Below are positions 10,447 through 16,317 of a stretch of 64,000 bases of DNA, piece after piece. How positions within the stretch are numbered: position 1 is the stretch's first letter; the number at the start of each line of letters is the position of its first letter. Origin of the DNA: Candidatus Sulfurimonas baltica (GTDB taxonomy: Bacteria > Campylobacterota > Campylobacteria > Campylobacterales > Sulfurimonadaceae); assembly GCF_015265455.1 (NCBI RefSeq), contig NZ_CP054492.1, positions 1 to 64,000 of the forward strand, in the 5' to 3' direction. Both the position numbers and the translations under genes were made by a program. The notes beneath the pieces were generated by a model. It was not told the origin of the DNA. It saw nothing but the letters and a program-made list of their open reading frames with translations, and searched no databases.

Positions 10447-11373
10447 TTAAAATCTTTTTCTATAACCATGACAATATGGTTTTGTTCCCTTTTTATTGTA
10501 GTAGTTTTGATGGTCTTCTTCAGCCTTATAAAACTCTTGTTTTTCTAGTATTTTTGTAGCAATATCAAAACCATTCTGCTTAAGTTGAGAAATAAGCTCT
10601 CTTATTGTATTTTTTTCGTTTTCATTATTCACAAAAACTGCCGAGAGATACTGTTCTCCTATGTCTGGACCTTGACCATTAGCTTGAGTAGGATCGTGAA
10701 TCTCAAAAAAAGTTTTTGCAATCATTTTGTAAGATATTTTTGAACTGTCATAAATTACTTCAACTGCCTCAAGATGCCCTGTATTGGAGCGAACTACCTC
10801 ATAATAGCTTGGGTTTTTTACATGTCCGCCCATAAAGCCAGAGTGAACCTCTTTTACACCATCTAGTTTTTCTAAGTAGTATTCAACTCCCCAAAAACAA
10901 CCACCAGCGAAATAAGCTTTTGATAGATTGTCTACTTTAGCATCATCTTTTTTGTTAAATTCTAATGAGATTGAATTTACACAGTGTCTAGTGTTTTTGT
11001 CAGTATAGCCTTCGCCTTCAAATACATGTCCCAGGTGTCCGCCACATTTTGCACAAACTATTTCAACACGTCTGCCATCTGCATCAGGAACTCTTTTTAC
11101 AGCCCCAGCAATTGCATCATCGAAACTTGGCCATCCACAGCTGGATTTAAATTTATCATCCGATTTGTAAAGTGGTGTCTGACATATCTTACATGTATAT
11201 ACACCACCATCTGTTGTGTCGGTATATTTCCCCACAAAAGGTCTCTCTGTACCTTTGTTTATAAGTACATATTTCTCTTCTTCACTAAGCTGTTCTATCC
11301 TACCCTTCCAGGGTTTTAAATCAATTGCATTCATTGTTGTAATTAAAAGTATGAAAGATATAAAAAGTTTCAT
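10447..11373 (-). CDS. msrBA: Exported bifunctional methionine sulfoxide reductase MsrB-MsrA
   Basis: This 308-residue fusion repairs oxidised methionine. The N-terminal MsrB domain acts on the R-sulfoxide. It shows a structural zinc site (Cys61/Cys64 in TCKIC, Cys107/Cys110 in CAKC), the CGWPSF motif and the catalytic Cys131 in RHCVNS. The C-terminal MsrA domain acts on the S-sulfoxide and has GGCFWG with catalytic Cys159. A hydrophobic N-terminus (about residues 2-17, ending NA) looks like a signal peptide, so the enzyme probably works in the periplasm or at the outer face of the membrane. Order here is B then A. It is convergent with the preceding small gene and divergent from nrdB. Both domains look complete. 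Confidence 0.93.
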   Translation of the reverse strand: MKLFISFILLITTMNAIDLKPWKGRIEQLSEEEKYVLINKGTERPFVGKYTDTTDGGVYTCKICQTPLYKSDDKFKSSCGWPSFDDAIAGAVKRVPDADGRRVEIVCAKCGGHLGHVFEGEGYTDKNTRHCVNSISLEFNKKDDAKVDNLSKAYFAGGCFWGVEYYLEKLDGVKEVHSGFMGGHVKNPSYYEVVRSNTGHLEAVEVIYDSSKISYKMIAKTFFEIHDPTQANGQGPDIGEQYLSAVFVNNENEKNTIRELISQLKQNGFDIATKILEKQEFYKAEEDHQNYYNKKGTKPYCHGYRKRF

Positions 11374-11518: not shown

Positions 11519-12541
11519 ATGAATAGAAAAAAAATATATAATCCAGAATCTAAAGAAAATGTAAATGATAGAAAAATATTTGGTGGAGATCCGACAGGGA
11601 TATTTGAGCTAAATAATATAAAATATCAGTGGGCATATAATCTTTGGGAAGTGATGTTGAACAACACTTGGTTCCCAAAAGAGGTCGATATGACTCGCGA
11701 TGTTATAGACTATAAAAATATTACACAAGCAGAAAAAGATGCTTATGACAAAGCTCTTTCACAGCTGATTTTTATGGATTCTCTTCAAACAAATAATATA
11801 ATGGATAATATAAACCCTTACGTAACATCTCCAGAAGTCAACCTTATACTTGTTAGACAATCATTTGAGGAGGCGCTTCACTCACAAAGCTATGCCGTTA
11901 TGGTAGATAGCATATCTACAAACTCTGAAGAAATTTATGACCTTTGGCGTCGAGATATGATGCTAAAGACAAAAAATGATGCTATTGCCAGTATTTATGA
12001 TGACCTCTCTTCAAACCCCACTGAGCACAATTTTGTAAAAGCTTGTTTTGCAAATCAAATCTTAGAGGGAATCTATTTCTATAGTGGCTTTGCTTATATT
12101 TACACGTTGGCTAGAAGTGGCAAAATGCTGGGTTCTGCACAAATGATTAGATTTATTCAAAGAGATGAAGTTACTCACTTGGTTCTTTTTCAAAACCTTA
12201 TAAATACACTTAGAAAAGAGAGACCTGATTTATTTACTGATAAGCTCAAAGAAGAGGTTATAGCAATGTTTAAACAGGCTGTACAACTTGAAACAGATTG
12301 GGGCAGATACATAACACAAGGGCAAATATTGGGCTTAACTGACACTATTATTGAACAGTACATTCAATATCTTGCAGATGACAGACTAGCGTCTGTTGGT
12401 TTTGAGAAGCTTTACAATGTAACAAATCCTATTAAGTGGGTTGATGACTTCTCAAAATTTAACGACCAAAAAACAAACTTCTTTGAGGGAACTGTTGCTA
12501 ATTACTCAAAAGGAAGCCTTACTTTTGATGATGATTTTTAG
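11519..12541 (+). CDS. nrdB: Class I ribonucleotide reductase beta subunit
   Basis: NrdB carries the diiron-tyrosyl cofactor that starts reduction of ribonucleotides to deoxyribonucleotides in the NrdA subunit. The 340-residue protein retains all the expected residues: Asp87 in FMDS, Glu118 and His121 in [10 protein letters not shown], radical tyrosine Tyr125, Glu183 in ILEGIYF, and Glu217/His220 in RDEVTHL. The retained tyrosine argues against the tyrosine-less class Ic. The partner nrdA is not in the window, so the subunits are encoded apart here. The gene has its own -10 box and overlaps the convergent MerR-family gene by 23 bases at its 3' end. Length and motifs are normal. Confidence 0.95.
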
Positions 12542-13211
12542 AAATCTCATCTTTAAGCGCTTTAAATAATACCTTATAAGTATAACGGCTAAAAAGGTAC
12601 TCTTTAGCGTTAAAAAGAGTCTCAAACATAATTTTCCATAGTGTTGAAAAGTTTTCATCACTACGAACACTGCAAAGCTGAATTTGCATCTCATACTCTA
12701 TTTTGGCTAACTCTTTTGCGTGATGAACATAGTTTTTTATCAGAGTGTAATTAACACCAGTTTCTCTGATATCCTCAATCAATCTAATAATAGAAGCTTC
12801 TTTTTCAGTAAAATCATCATCTGCTAGCGGTACAAGTACGCCGTCACTTAGAAGTTGTTCTAAAAGTTTAATATCAAAGTCATAATGCTCTATAAATTGC
12901 TCTTTAGTATAGTGTTTAGCCCCTGCAGGTATAGCGCTTAGTGTTTGCATAAGTGGGGCTAACATTGAAAATGAACTTGAAAGAGATTGGTTTTTATGTT
13001 GCAGGGCAGTTTTTATCTGCTCATTTGAGCTTCCCAGCTCTTGCTTCATATATTTTATGTACTTAATCAGTTCTACATGTTCTTCACTATATCTGTGTAC
13101 ATTTGATTTAAATTTTTTTGCTTCAGGAAGTAAACCTTCTCTTATATAGTAAAGAATCGTTGATTTTGGTACATCTGTTTGTGTGACTATTTCTGATATT
13201 TTATATTCCAT
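12519..13211 (-). CDS. MerR-family transcriptional regulator of the YeeE/AhpD-like locus
   Basis: The 230-residue protein begins with a MerR-type winged helix-turn-helix: [19 protein letters not shown] (about 4-22), then IREGLLP and [16 protein letters not shown] helical region follows, and its long C-terminal half has no recognisable ligand domain. Only one cysteine, in the late LCSVRSDE segment, is visible, so a multi-cysteine metal site as in classic MerR is unlikely. It is divergent from the yeeE pair, with a perfect 11-bp dyad between them that also covers the likely -35 region of its own promoter, consistent with autoregulation. Its 3' end overlaps nrdB by 23 bases on the opposite strand. 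The inducing signal is unknown; reactive sulfur or oxidants would suit the neighbouring genes. Confidence 0.87.
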
Positions 13212-13257
13212 CTATTAGCCTATTAATATTGATATAAGAATTATACCCTATAATTTT

Positions 13258-13280
13258 AACGTTAAGTAGTACTTAACGTT
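13258..13280. promoter_or_regulatory. Perfect 11-bp dyad, probable MerR-family operator O1
   Basis: AACGTTAAGTA (13258-13268), a single central G, and the exact reverse complement (13270-13280) form a perfect inverted repeat between the divergent merR-like and yeeE genes. It starts 4 bases after a + strand TATAAT (13249-13254), so a bound dimer would cover the + transcription start. On the minus strand it overlaps the place of a -35 element about 16 bases before another TATAAT-like box. This geometry suits a repressor. Confidence 0.7.
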
Positions 13281-13301
13281 TTTCAAACAAAGGATTAAAT
13301 A

Positions 13302-13817
13302 ATGCCTCGTTCAATACCTTGGTGGGTTGGTGGTATAGCCATGAGCTTACTGTTTTTTATTAGTTTTTCAGTTTGGGGTGCAGATAGACCAATCGGCGCT
13401 TCTACTGGGATGAGTTACCTTGCAAACTTAATTTTTGGTCTTGATGCCGAGGACCATAAATATGTTGCAATTATACAGGAGAGTGGTGCCTGGGAAGGTG
13501 TAATGCTTATTGGTGTATTTTTTGGTGGACTATTTATGTCTGTCTTTGTTACAAAAACGTTTCGCATTAGCTACATACCTACACTTTGGAAGGAGCGTAA
13601 AAATAGCTCTGTTAAATCTCGAATGGTTTGGAGTTTTATAGCAGGTTTTATGCTGGTTTTTGGAGCACGCTTAGCTGGTGGATGTAATGCTGGACATATA
13701 CTCTCAGGTGGTTCACAAATAGCAGTTAGCGGGATTATATTTGCTGTTGTTGCATTAGGTACAGGAATGATAACAGGTAGATTTTTTTATAAGAAAAAGA
13801 GGTGTAGAGAATGTTAG
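13302..13817 (+). CDS. YeeE/YedE-family (DUF395) half-size permease, first subunit
   Basis: YeeE/YedE proteins are membrane transporters or channels; the full-length YeeE imports thiosulfate and passes it between conserved cysteines. This 171-residue protein corresponds to half of that fold. It has hydrophobic segments at about 8-26, 63-84, 107-121 and 138-157, and the hallmark cysteine Cys128 in LAGGCNAGH. It ends with a cysteine-bearing KKKRCREC tail that could face the cytosol. The next gene, overlapping by 7 bases, encodes the other half, so a two-subunit carrier like the PmpA/PmpB pairs of other proteobacteria is likely. It follows the dyad operator and AAAGGATTAAATA. Substrate (thiosulfate or another sulfur species) is inferred from family, not shown. 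Confidence 0.85.
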   Translation: MPRSIPWWVGGIAMSLLFFISFSVWGADRPIGASTGMSYLANLIFGLDAEDHKYVAIIQESGAWEGVMLIGVFFGGLFMSVFVTKTFRISYIPTLWKERKNSSVKSRMVWSFIAGFMLVFGARLAGGCNAGHILSGGSQIAVSGIIFAVVALGTGMITGRFFYKKKRCREC

Positions 13818-14416
13818 ATCGTATTTCAAATATGTTTAGCCTTGTAGCAAATCAAGCACATGGTTCTGTATGGCTTGTACTTTTTATAGGTTTTTGTTTT
13901 GGTGCAATTATTCTTTATTCACGTCTTGATAAGTTTGAAAAAATGGCCGGTTTTATGATTTTTGAGGATACTTTAGTTCCAAGAATGGCAATGACTACTG
14001 TTGCATTATCAAGCATAGGTTTTTACTTTTTAGTTGATTCTGGTTATGCTAGTTATGCTATCAAACCTACTATTTTAGGTGGCCTGATTGTTGGCGCAAT
14101 AATCTTTGGTATTGGTTTAGTTATATTAGGAAAATGCCCATCAGCATTTTTTGTTTCAGTTTCAGAAGGTCGCGTTGATACTTTTGTTGGTGTTGTTGGA
14201 GGTATGGTTGGTGGAGCGGTTTTTACTCTTGTTTATCCGTGGATTGAAAATATTATAGGACCCAATTTGGGTAAGATAAGACTATCCGATGTATTTGGCG
14301 GATACGACTTGGCGATTGTTCTTGTATTAAGTAGTGTACTTTTGATAACAGCTTATCTTCTTCCAACCATTAATTATGAAGACCCTGCTGATAATAGAGA
14401 AACCAGAGTAAAATAG
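13811..14416 (+). CDS. YeeE/YedE-family (DUF395) half-size permease, second subunit
   Basis: This 201-residue membrane protein is the partner of the preceding half-permease. It has about five hydrophobic segments (roughly 18-36, 57-76, 87-107, 127-146 and 165-184). It carries the second family cysteine Cys109 in LGKCPSAFF, matching the GKC-type motif of YeeE. Its ATG overlaps the end of the upstream gene by 7 bases, indicating translational coupling and equal synthesis. The pair together would recreate the pseudo-symmetric YeeE fold with one cysteine from each subunit along the path. A 99-base gap with its own promoter and a second operator-like dyad separates it from the AhpD-like gene. Confidence 0.85.
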   Translation: MLDRISNMFSLVANQAHGSVWLVLFIGFCFGAIILYSRLDKFEKMAGFMIFEDTLVPRMAMTTVALSSIGFYFLVDSGYASYAIKPTILGGLIVGAIIFGIGLVILGKCPSAFFVSVSEGRVDTFVGVVGGMVGGAVFTLVYPWIENIIGPNLGKIRLSDVFGGYDLAIVLVLSSVLLITAYLLPTINYEDPADNRETRVK

Positions 14417-14447
14417 TTGAATAAAACATTATCTAAGAAATAAACTC

Positions 14448-14481
14448 TATAATTATAAAACGATAAGTCAAACTTAATGTT
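14448..14481. promoter_or_regulatory. Promoter -10 box with second operator-like dyad O2
   Basis: TATAAT at 14448-14453 is followed 5 bases later by an imperfect 23-base dyad (14459-14481), whose left part reads AACGATAAGT and whose right part reads ACTTAATGTT. By hand alignment it matches the perfect dyad O1 at 18 of 23 positions and sits at nearly the same distance from a -10 box. It lies upstream of the AhpD-like gene, so that gene and its followers probably share the MerR-family regulator. Confidence 0.6.
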
Positions 14482-14515: not shown

Positions 14516-15046
14516 ATGGCACATATAAAACTACCGGAATTTGAAGATATGAGTCCTGCAATTCAAGATAAAGCTCGTCCAATTTTAGAAAAAACAGGCA
14601 AACTAGGTGAAATATTTAAACTAATGGCACTTGATGATAAAATATATTTTGCAACAGACGGGATGATTCAAAAGTATCTACTTGATGAAACAACATTGTC
14701 TTATGATATTAAAGAGTCAATTGCACTTCTTATATCAGTAGAAAATGGCTGTAAAATGTGTGTTGATGTACATAAAGGTATCGCAGAAATGCTTGGACTA
14801 TCAGATGAGAGAATAGCAGAAGTTTTACAAGGTGTTGATGCTATCAATACTGATGATAAAGAAAAAGCTCTTTTAAATTTTTGTATTAGAGCCTCTAAAA
14901 AAGATAACTACAAAGTACTTAAAAGTGAAATTGATGCACTGAAAGATATGGGTTATAGTGATGTTCAAATAGTTGAGGCAGTAGCAATAACAGGATACTT
15001 CAACTATATAAACACGCTATCAAATGTTTTTGCTTTAGGTCAATAA
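14516..15046 (+). CDS. AhpD-like (carboxymuconolactone decarboxylase family) CxxC protein
   Basis: The 176-residue protein is all-helical and carries the AhpD-type redox motif: Cys79 and Cys82 in GCKMC and His86 in VDVHKG. In AhpD this CxxC...H arrangement performs disulfide exchange supporting peroxide reduction. The ATG follows AACAAAGGAAAAAAA, a strong ribosome site. The gene is led by its own -10 box and operator-like dyad O2, and is followed after 6 bases by an exported DsrE-like gene. Context with YeeE-type permeases suggests handling of reactive sulfur or thiol disulfides rather than aromatic degradation; that is an inference. No decarboxylase pathway genes are nearby. Confidence 0.85.
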   Translation: MAHIKLPEFEDMSPAIQDKARPILEKTGKLGEIFKLMALDDKIYFATDGMIQKYLLDETTLSYDIKESIALLISVENGCKMCVDVHKGIAEMLGLSDERIAEVLQGVDAINTDDKEKALLNFCIRASKKDNYKVLKSEIDALKDMGYSDVQIVEAVAITGYFNYINTLSNVFALGQ

Positions 15047-15052
15047 AAGATT

Positions 15053-15502
15053 ATGAAATATATATTTTTAGCACTTATACTACTCTCTGGTATAGTTCAA
15101 GCAAAAGAGTTCAAAGCTGTTTTTGACTGCAGTTCGAAGAACAGCGGATACATTGTTAGCCGTATGTTTTTAATCGAGAGAACTATAGATATGATTGAGG
15201 AAAAAGGCGATAGCGTGAAATTTGCCATTACGATTCACGGCAGTTGCGCCCCTATAGTTTCAAAAAATATAGATGAGATTATAATGGATGATGCAGAGTT
15301 GGCAAATATGCAAAAAGCAAGAGAACAACTTGAGAGATTAGCTACTAAAAAAGGTGTTGATGTAACTGTTTGCGCGATGAGCCTAAATGCCAATACAATA
15401 GATAAAGATTATGTTCTCCCTTTTGTTAAAATATCAGAAAACAGTTTTATTGATACAATTGGTTATCAAAATGATGGCTATGCTCTTATGACATTTAAAT
15501 AA
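15053..15502 (+). CDS. Exported DsrE-family protein
   Basis: A signal peptide (about residues 1-17, ending VQA) precedes a 130-residue DsrE/DsrF-like fold. Family features are the FAITIHGSCAPIV strand, with Cys65, and the VDVTVCAMSLNANTI segment, with Cys107 at the position where sulfur-carrying DsrE proteins place their reactive cysteine. DsrE relatives carry persulfide sulfur or bind thiols. The location outside the cytosol distinguishes this one from the classic DsrEFH complex. It starts 6 bases after the AhpD-like gene and ends 11 bases before the pseudo-deformylase gene, so all three are probably one operon. Sulfur transfer in the periplasm is plausible but not proven. Confidence 0.8.
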   Translation: MKYIFLALILLSGIVQAKEFKAVFDCSSKNSGYIVSRMFLIERTIDMIEEKGDSVKFAITIHGSCAPIVSKNIDEIIMDDAELANMQKAREQLERLATKKGVDVTVCAMSLNANTIDKDYVLPFVKISENSFIDTIGYQNDGYALMTFK

Positions 15503-15513
15503 GGATAAATATA

Positions 15514-16317
15514 ATGGTAAAAAAAATTGTTACATACCCGACAACTCCAAGTTTGGAATTTGGTGCAAATGTTAGATTCTTTAATGATGAGCTATTCGCA
15601 ATTGTCCAAGATTTAAAAGATACAATCCAAGCGAATGATTTAGATGCACTTGCGGCATTTCAGATAGGTTCACCACTCTCCGTTGTAGTAGTAAAAAAAG
15701 ATGGCGAGTTTATAGAGTTGGTAAATCCGAGAGTTTTAAAAAGAGAAGGGAGTATTACGCCGGTTGAGACTACAGCCTATTTCCCCGGTATGAGTGCTAA
15801 AACAATAAGATATAAAAAAATCACCCTTATGTATGAGGACAGAAGTGGCAATCAGCAATTTTTAGAGGCTGATGGGGAGTTAGCCATAACTATTCAGAGA
15901 AAAATTGATTATGTTTTTGGCTCAAACTTTCGAGTAAGACTTGATGAGGCTGAGAAAAAACTTTTTGATTCAAAGCTGGAGTTTGGAACGGATGCGATTA
16001 CGCAAAACGATTGTCCGACAGTGTTTAAAAGAGATAGAATACTTCAAGCTTTTAAATATCTTTTCATTTTTGGAATTATTGGTGTAGTATCGAGCTTTTT
16101 TATGAGTGATGAGAGTTTAAAGAGTTTGGTAACAGTAGAAAATTATATTATGATTTTAATGAGTTTTCTTATTGTTATTTATTTCTTATATGCGCAATAT
16201 GAAGGGAAACAATATAAGCACTGCACCTCTTGTCAGATTGGAAATATAATAGGCACCACAATAGTTTTATTAATGAAGCTAACGGTACTTTTTTTAGCAT
16301 ACTATTTTATAATTTAA
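15514..16317 (+). CDS. Pseudo-peptide-deformylase fused to a C-terminal membrane domain
   Basis: Residues 1-155 align by eye with peptide deformylase. LDALAAFQIG (about 43-52) matches the GxGLAAxQ motif, ETTAYFPG (85-92) matches EGCLSxPG, and the segment ending IQRKIDY (127-133) matches QHEIDH. Every metal ligand and the catalytic glutamate are changed. The cysteine is Thr87, the two histidines are Arg129 and Tyr133, and the glutamate is Lys130. Deformylase activity is therefore very unlikely. The C-terminal part has three probable membrane helices (about 180-196, 211-227 and 245-266) with a CTSC pair at 237-240 between the last two. RBS AAGGATAAATATA supports the start. It closes the operon with the AhpD-like and DsrE-like genes. 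Its role may be ligand binding or a structural one; none is established. Confidence 0.75.
   Translation: MVKKIVTYPTTPSLEFGANVRFFNDELFAIVQDLKDTIQANDLDALAAFQIGSPLSVVVVKKDGEFIELVNPRVLKREGSITPVETTAYFPGMSAKTIRYKKITLMYEDRSGNQQFLEADGELAITIQRKIDYVFGSNFRVRLDEAEKKLFDSKLEFGTDAITQNDCPTVFKRDRILQAFKYLFIFGIIGVVSSFFMSDESLKSLVTVENYIMILMSFLIVIYFLYAQYEGKQYKHCTSCQIGNIIGTTIVLLMKLTVLFLAYYFII

Follow-up and report, generated by a model that had tools for sequence, protein, structure and literature searches.

Which protein acts at the two inverted repeats that follow TATAAT boxes in a cluster of YeeE-, AhpD- and DsrE-like genes of Candidatus Sulfurimonas baltica, and what does it do there? The cluster lies in the window, the 64,000-nucleotide stretch of DNA that was analysed, and the region studied belongs to a single-contig genome of 2,737,757 bases (2.74 Mb). 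An earlier note had assigned both repeats, here called O1 and O2, to the MerR-type protein encoded beside them. Our comparisons make it quite likely that O1 and O2 are operators of the protein encoded at 12519–13211, a MerR-superfamily regulator that would act as an autoregulated repressor and receive its signal, likely, through the cysteine C180.

The locus and its genes

The genes and sites of the locus, in order along the window, are:

12519–13211, minus strand: MerR-superfamily regulator, 230 aa, one cysteine (C180); Pfam MerR_1, E 6.7e-17
13240–13245, minus strand: predicted −10 box (TATAAT) of the merR promoter, back to back with the YeeE −10 box; from sequence
13249–13254, plus strand: predicted −10 box (TATAAT) of the YeeE-pair promoter; from sequence
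13258–13280, no strand: O1, perfect 11-bp inverted repeat with a 1-nt centre, AACGTTAAGTAGTACTTAACGTT; from sequence, proposed operator
13302–13817, plus strand: half-length YeeE/YedE protein, PmpA-like, 171 aa; Pfam PF04143, profile positions 175–309, E 3.7e-15
13811–14416, plus strand: half-length YeeE/YedE protein, PmpB-like, 201 aa; Pfam PF04143, profile positions 11–148, E 3.7e-17
14448–14453, plus strand: predicted −10 box (TATAAT) of the AhpD-like operon promoter; from sequence
14459–14481, no strand: O2, weaker dyad, AACGATAAGTCAAACTTAATGTT; from sequence, proposed second operator
14516–15046, plus strand: carboxymuconolactone decarboxylase (CMD)/AhpD-core protein; Pfam CMD, E 7.9e-11; TIGR00778, E 2.4e-14
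15053–15502, plus strand: DsrE/DsrF-like protein; Pfam PF02635, E 4.4e-11
15514–16317, plus strand: deformylase-fold protein without catalytic motifs; Pfam PF01327, E 3.9e-25

These Pfam and TIGR matches bear out the gene identities of the earlier note, which had placed a YeeE pair and AhpD-like, DsrE-like and pseudo-deformylase genes in one regulon next to a MerR-type gene. EGCLS and HExxH are the catalytic motifs of deformylase, and both are absent from the deformylase-fold protein in 14/14 sequences examined (window included). The gene is kept near merR in many relatives; motif-less yet retained, its product looks like a conserved pseudo-enzyme. By eye, the C-terminal part of this protein is hydrophobic, and the DsrE-like protein has a hydrophobic start with the look of a signal peptide. 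In Pfam, the 13302–13817 protein matches the C-terminal half of Sulf_transp and the 13811–14416 protein the N-terminal half. PmpB is described as the N-terminal and PmpA as the C-terminal half of YeeE proteins in the available passages of PMC11582611; the window pair is like PmpA/PmpB, as described there, in this assignment of halves, with 171 and 201 aa as against about 130 aa.

The merR gene and a ribonucleotide reductase small-chain gene are convergent, their 3′ ends overlapping by 23 nt (12519–12541); the same convergent pair is found in loci L004, L005, L006, L007, L020, L021, L022 and L024. A 308-aa protein encoded at 10447–11373 adjoins the cluster and resembles, by eye, a fused methionine sulfoxide reductase; such a gene is also near the cluster in L004, L020 and L021.

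The dyads O1 and O2

O1 is a perfect 11-bp inverted repeat at 13258–13280, O2 is identical to it at 18/23 positions, and TATAAT occurs at 13249–13254 and 14448–14453, all as first reported. The spacing from box to dyad, given as 4 and 5 bases, is 5 bases at O2 as claimed and 3 bases at O1. Within the window O1 is the sole perfect inverted repeat of its geometry (0.042 expected). A pattern merged from O1 and O2, allowing up to three mismatches, was run on the window and on the 2,737,757-base genome. O1 and O2 are the only places that it matches in the window, where shuffles average 0.03 matches, and the only places in the whole genome, where the pattern read backwards matches one. A profile of the dyad alone ranks O1 first in the whole genome (E 9.9e-6) and O2 second (E 0.03), the third place having an E of 0.33; a profile that includes the −10 box gives E 8.8e-11 for O1 and 2.7e-5 for O2. 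O2 is weaker than O1 (PWM scores 19.7 and 31.1). In G032, a sister genome, the O2 counterpart departs from the pattern at three positions and has a PWM score of 16.2. A chance origin of the dyads was rejected on the grounds of this rarity in the genome, of conservation beside merR and of co-occurrence with a close MerR.

Conservation beside the regulator

Close orthologues of the regulator were taken from whole genomes and from named public genomes, mostly of Sulfurimonas, Sulfuricurvum and other Campylobacterales, giving 44 loci with 41 distinct proteins. A dyad was counted as present if it scored at least 15 within 220 nt before merR. By score it is found at merR in 42 of the 44 loci; L036 has a 22-bp form with a centre one base shorter, recognised by eye. 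With L036 so counted, the dyad stands beside the regulator gene in 40/40 testable distinct close orthologues. The dyads are conserved with the regulator in relatives, a point on which the earlier note had made its proposal depend. L041 lies outside the testable set, its contig ending with no upstream DNA; the start of the regulator recurs on another contig of the presumed L041 genome (G155), and the dyad is present there.

The dyad is 44–53 nt from the merR start codon in 39/42 loci and further away in L023, L025 and L037 (83, 84 and 113 nt over the three). The gap between the predicted −10 box and the dyad is 4 nt in 31, 3 nt in 6, 5 nt in 4 and 6 nt in 1 of 42 regions, copies included. The aligned set of 38 segments leaves out duplicates, the distant homologues, L036, L041 and also L038, which has a second site with a higher score. 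In this set the TATA of the YeeE-side −10 box is invariant (38/38), as are several positions of the dyad. An opposite −10 box faces the first in 42/49 upstream regions searched with a loose pattern, which makes back-to-back promoters for regulator and target probable.

The neighbourhoods of the merR loci were read by tblastn; on the divergent side lie AhpD-like, DsrE-like, deformylase-like and YeeE genes in varying subsets. A related dyad is also found next to three distant MerR homologues of about 30–38% identity (L016, L019 and G109). The loci of the distant homologues L015, L017 and L018 have no convincing dyad (best scores 8.4, −0.5 and 4.4; L018 begins near its contig end). Contig JALSLQ010000013.1 (L033, L051) carries two copies of the regulator, each divergent from YeeE and each with a dyad, and might reveal whether variants of the regulator are matched by variants of the operator.

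Distribution across the genus

Across 135 genomes of the genus we scanned for sites with profile R1, built from 38 segments next to merR, and searched for the regulator protein. A MerR match occurs in 42/135 genomes; 40 of these have a close orthologue (window included), and G109 and G007 have distant ones only. G134, in which the close orthologue is broken off by a contig end, is counted among the 40. Among the matches listed, an R1 site at E ≤ 1e-4 is present in 40/40 genomes with a close MerR and in 1/95 of the others (Fisher 1.3e-33 for the co-occurrence of site and close MerR, at a threshold chosen after the list was seen). The one exception, G080, has a weak site and no close MerR. At the lax limit of E ≤ 0.5, 120/135 genomes have some match among those listed, as chance predicts. 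Since the merR-proximal sites trained R1, recall in the 40 genomes is partly built in; the negatives and the unlinked sites are not. This concentration of sites in close-MerR genomes, 40/40 against 1/95 among the matches listed, is the outcome of the motif search of genome and relatives that the earlier note had suggested.

The plain pattern was run on 60 relatives, the window genome included. It matched 10/60 genomes, nine of them with MerR, and 13/60 when read backwards, so that with three mismatches the pattern alone is unspecific and its value lies in the concentration of its matches in MerR genomes. It missed 3/12 close-MerR genomes (G011, G013 and G040), in which the PWM finds the dyad beside merR. 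The plain-pattern matches L061, within coding sequence, and L058, from a genome without MerR (G036), were taken as chance.

Homologues of the target genes were compared in the same way. Close YeeE orthologues (79–100% identity) have the dyad in 6/6 cases, including two that are not linked to merR; among distant YeeE copies it occurs in 0/3 rows from close-MerR genomes and in 0/11 testable rows without close MerR. AhpD-like homologues have it in 7/8 rows from close-MerR genomes and in 0/8 without close MerR, including G004 and G026 at 82–84% identity, which brings the YeeE- and AhpD-like homologues from genomes without a close orthologue to 0/19 testable rows. The AhpD-like gene of G011 is without a dyad of its own and follows the YeeE pair there. 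Row L083, in which the gene start falls off the contig, was excluded from these counts; rows L073 and L082 have less than 200 nt of upstream sequence, and the rows G007 and G042, counted as without close MerR, do have a distant MerR homologue. Training of the PWM used 36 distinct sites; these overlap in part with the tested rows, and O1 is identical to the training site from L007. The positive rows that the training did not include are O2 and its G032 counterpart, and the YeeE sites unlinked from merR in G009 and G031.

Unlinked sites and a proposed wider regulon

At E ≤ 1e-3, at least 16 places among the matches listed are not upstream of merR, O2 and its G032 counterpart included; 20 site-bearing stretches out of the matches listed were inspected. 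A YeeE pair away from merR has its own dyad in G009, G031, G065 and G069. Unlinked dyads precede an HpcH/HpaI-type gene and a DsbD gene in G031, G069 and G148 (assigned by Pfam for the G031 copies, judged by sequence for those of G069 and G148). The DsbD dyads (L167:2467–2489, L166:2488–2510 and L163:2525–2547) lie, by eye, before a candidate −10 box, unlike O1 and O2; not every target has the geometry of O1, therefore, and the effect at DsbD may differ. A second DsrE-like gene is preceded by a dyad in G068 and also in G096, where it lies directly behind merR. Five loci carry a thioredoxin-like gene on the divergent side of merR, as the first gene in L005 and behind a short unclassified frame in L009, L023, L025 and L044 (the call rests on Pfam for L005 and L009 only). 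The unlinked dyad before a histidine-kinase gene in G065 has no obvious regulon gene, and neither do matches in G080 and G017, both without close MerR. Two weaker matches lie at a junction of coding genes in a genome without MerR (G106) and beside DsbD but preceding an unclassified gene (G079). We interpret the common thread of the targets as sulfur transport, DsrE-type sulfur transfer and disulfide handling.

The regulator protein

The N-terminal winged helix–turn–helix (HTH) is of the MerR superfamily (PF13411, 61.8 bits against a cut-off of 21.6). Its fold matches PbrR691 (Z 13.4, rmsd 1.3 over 73 residues), and the structural matches of this domain also include GlnR and CvkR. The assignment to the MerR family in the earlier note holds at this level (MerR_1, E 6.7e-17) and fails for the classic metal-sensing type, as the protein has one conserved cysteine and the dyad follows the −10 box. 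A search for the two conserved cysteines of the C-terminal metal-binding loop of the classic MerR/CueR/SoxR type found one conserved cysteine column, at position 180. MerR-superfamily proteins act as dimers on inverted repeats; here a conserved inverted repeat co-occurs with the regulator, a predicted dimer.

The modelled regulator (mean pLDDT 83.0) also includes another HTH-like segment and a long hairpin of helices. Its confidence drops around C180: the blocks from residue 171 have values of 83, 76 and 74, below most of the C-terminal domain. Because the N-terminal domain dominates a fold search with the full-length model, we folded the C-terminal domain separately (mean pLDDT 91.7) and searched with it on its own. 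Its best-ranked neighbour is Rv1828 (5ydc_B; Z 8.9, rmsd 5.0 over 119 residues, 17% identity), a match within the range that helical models reach without kinship, and the fold is possibly Rv1828-like.

C180 is invariant in 41/41 close orthologues, the next best cysteine column reaching 7/41. Four aligned distant homologues have L, L, I and E at this position (0/4 cysteine); L017, outside the protein alignment, has cysteines at 39, 71 and 229. In the model, C180 is located at the end of the first long helix of the C-terminal hairpin, just before a highly conserved stretch. Since 13 C-terminal positions are invariant in the 41 close orthologues, C180 is one of several. Its conservation, together with the gene set, suggests that C180 is a thiol or sulfane-sulfur sensor; this single conserved cysteine may be structural instead.

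Proposed mode of action

The sequences themselves show the dyad and where it lies, its conservation, its co-occurrence with the regulator and its unlinked targets; we infer the promoter boxes, the starts, direct binding, repression, sensing by the cysteine and the identity of the signal as follows. The 23-bp dyad AACGTWAAGT-N3-ACTTWACGTT would be bound by a dimer of the regulator. Where the promoter is of the YeeE or AhpD type, this dyad starts 3–6 nt beyond the predicted −10 box, over the predicted transcription start; a start 6–8 nt after the −10 box would fall in the left arm at O1 and O2, so that a bound dimer would block RNA polymerase at these promoters (simple repression). The earlier note had argued that a placement over the start suits a repressor, and the distances agree with this. 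The dimer bound to O1 would also occupy the merR −35 region on the divergent side and so give autoregulation; O1 covers the place of the predicted merR −35 box, in keeping with the proposal that the regulator overlaps its own promoter. The predicted promoters of this locus have no good −35 box. Campylobacterota promoters are often without one. For their sigma-70 promoters, the passages available of PMC3847290 give a −10 box of the form gnTAnaAT. The regulon would here comprise the half-permease YeeE (PmpAB-like) pair and the AhpD-like/DsrE-like/pseudo-deformylase operon, and in relatives would add thioredoxin-like, DsbD, second DsrE-like and HpcH-type genes. C180 would most likely read a thiol-reactive sulfur or oxidant species as the signal, and modification of this cysteine would release the DNA.

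Classic activators of the family bind an operator between the −35 and −10 boxes, in a spacer of 19–20 bp. Such a spacer operator of the classic MerR/CueR/SoxR type was considered and finds no support in the position of the dyads, which begin 3–6 nt after the predicted −10 box in 42/42 scored merR-divergent regions. To our knowledge, activators of the MerR family are not known to act from a position just after the −10 box. An activating or dual role of the regulator at the dyads, in place of simple repression, we regard as unlikely. A change from repressor to activator is common among MerR-family proteins, according to the part of PMC9909328 available, and the dyad is upstream of a candidate −10 box at the merR promoter and at DsbD of G031, G069 and G148. 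The dyads of the YeeE- and AhpD-type promoters, however, start 3–6 nt after the −10 box, those of the unlinked YeeE and HpcH-type genes also follow a TATAAT-like box, and the gap varies by up to 3 nt, as against the fixed distance from site to promoter that the excerpt of PMC5045206 describes for metal-responsive MerR activators.

Binding of the dyads by a different regulator, co-inherited with merR, is improbable. Two linked genes could be lost together; yet the dyad stays beside merR whatever the divergent gene (AhpD-like, YeeE, thioredoxin-like or deformylase-like), it is found beside three distant MerR homologues, and it co-occurs with the close MerR across the genus (40/40 against 1/95, among the matches listed). 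Least probable of all is that the inverted repeat works as RNA, as a 5′ hairpin or attenuator, and not as a DNA operator: a short T run follows O1, 82.8% of alignment cells would pair against 79.0% in shuffles (0/500 as high), and few shuffles reach the covariation score (0/500 as high) or the cells changed on both sides (3/500 as high), but for related sequences, values above those of such shuffles need not reflect a structure. Shuffles contain as many pairs changed on both sides (4.3, against 4 observed) and as many further pair types (10.5, against 10 observed), and 15 or 16 of the 38 sequences have no pair at positions 5/25, 9/21 and 14/16. The dyads near L016 and L019 are without an adjacent TATAAT, and the predicted start lies inside the left arm, so that part of this arm would be missing from the transcript and the arm would be too near +1 to act in termination.

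Likely origin of O2

The 40 bases before O2 align with the 40 before O1 with a score of 13.5, reached by 1/2000 base-order shuffles, and the scores of the former against the merR–AhpD intergenic regions of six relatives are reached by 0 to 12/2000 shuffles. For the G032 counterpart of O2 against the relatives' merR–AhpD intergenic regions the figure is 0 to 3/2000, except for L006 (127/2000); all these shuffles keep base content only. O2 looks like a copy or relic of the merR–AhpD intergenic region. It is likely that the YeeE pair, with its own promoter–operator, ended up between merR and the AhpD-like operon, and that the old promoter–operator persists as O2.

Discussion

HspR, GlnR and CvkR are MerR-superfamily repressors with which the regulator shares the MerR-type HTH; their operators, targets and effector domains differ from those of this regulator. 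NmlR and AdhR are members of the family that sense electrophiles or oxidants through a conserved cysteine. We take that cysteine to lie in their DNA-binding domain; C180 is instead in the C-terminal helix hairpin, and the match to the NmlR profile is weak (30.8 against a cut-off of 175 bits). Rv1828/FtsR, of the MerR superfamily in Actinobacteria, is like the regulator in its N-terminal MerR HTH and possibly in its C-terminal fold. It is unlike it in profile score (37.1 bits against a cut-off of 150), in sequence (17% identity in the aligned domain) and in phylum.

In the genes that it would control, the regulator resembles repressors of the ArsR type. The excerpt of PMC7315123 describes Acinetobacter BigR as an ArsR-type protein with a cysteine pair, C34/C100, that controls the yeeE-yedE-pdo2 operon, and in Hyphomicrobium the ArsR-type SoxR works with the YeeE-family protein SoxT (available parts of PMC11582611 and the related PMC12423496). 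As described for BigR, SqrR and sHdrR in the passages available, the system here would join a cysteine-bearing repressor to a two-gene YeeE/YedE transporter and sulfur-handling genes. Unlike the persulfide sensors BigR and SqrR as described there, with an ArsR fold and a cysteine pair, the regulator has a MerR-type HTH and one conserved cysteine; unlike the BigR operon in those passages, the genes classified here include no persulfide dioxygenase. In the literature searched (open-licence PMC) we found no MerR-type regulator of YeeE, DsrE or AhpD-like genes and no sulfur-responsive regulator of Sulfurimonas. MerR has 0 occurrences in PMC11582611, the PmpA/PmpB and SoxT paper, and the MerR passages seen of PMC6501319 are about mercury.

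A new regulon with a new-variant regulator is well supported by these sequence data. More tentatively, it is quite possible that the regulator stands for an undescribed class of single-cysteine MerR-superfamily repressors in Campylobacterota, in which C180 would sense sulfane sulfur or thiol oxidation and which would run a regulon for sulfur import and periplasmic thiols (YeeE/PmpAB, DsrE-like, AhpD-like, thioredoxin-like and DsbD), as the Sulfurimonas counterpart of the ArsR-type BigR and SoxR.

Sulfurimonas are widespread sulfur oxidisers. Sensing by the regulator is directly testable, since an operator is defined, one cysteine is invariant and the sulfur and thiol genes concerned are few. 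The regulon would also give a shared regulatory context to poorly understood families, namely the half YeeE proteins, the AhpD-like proteins and the pseudo-deformylase. Sulfur sensing is a job described for ArsR, CsoR/CstR, FisR, OxyR and MarR proteins (available passages of PMC11211675). If C180 is the sensor, this regulator would be a MerR-type solution to a job described for other regulator families.
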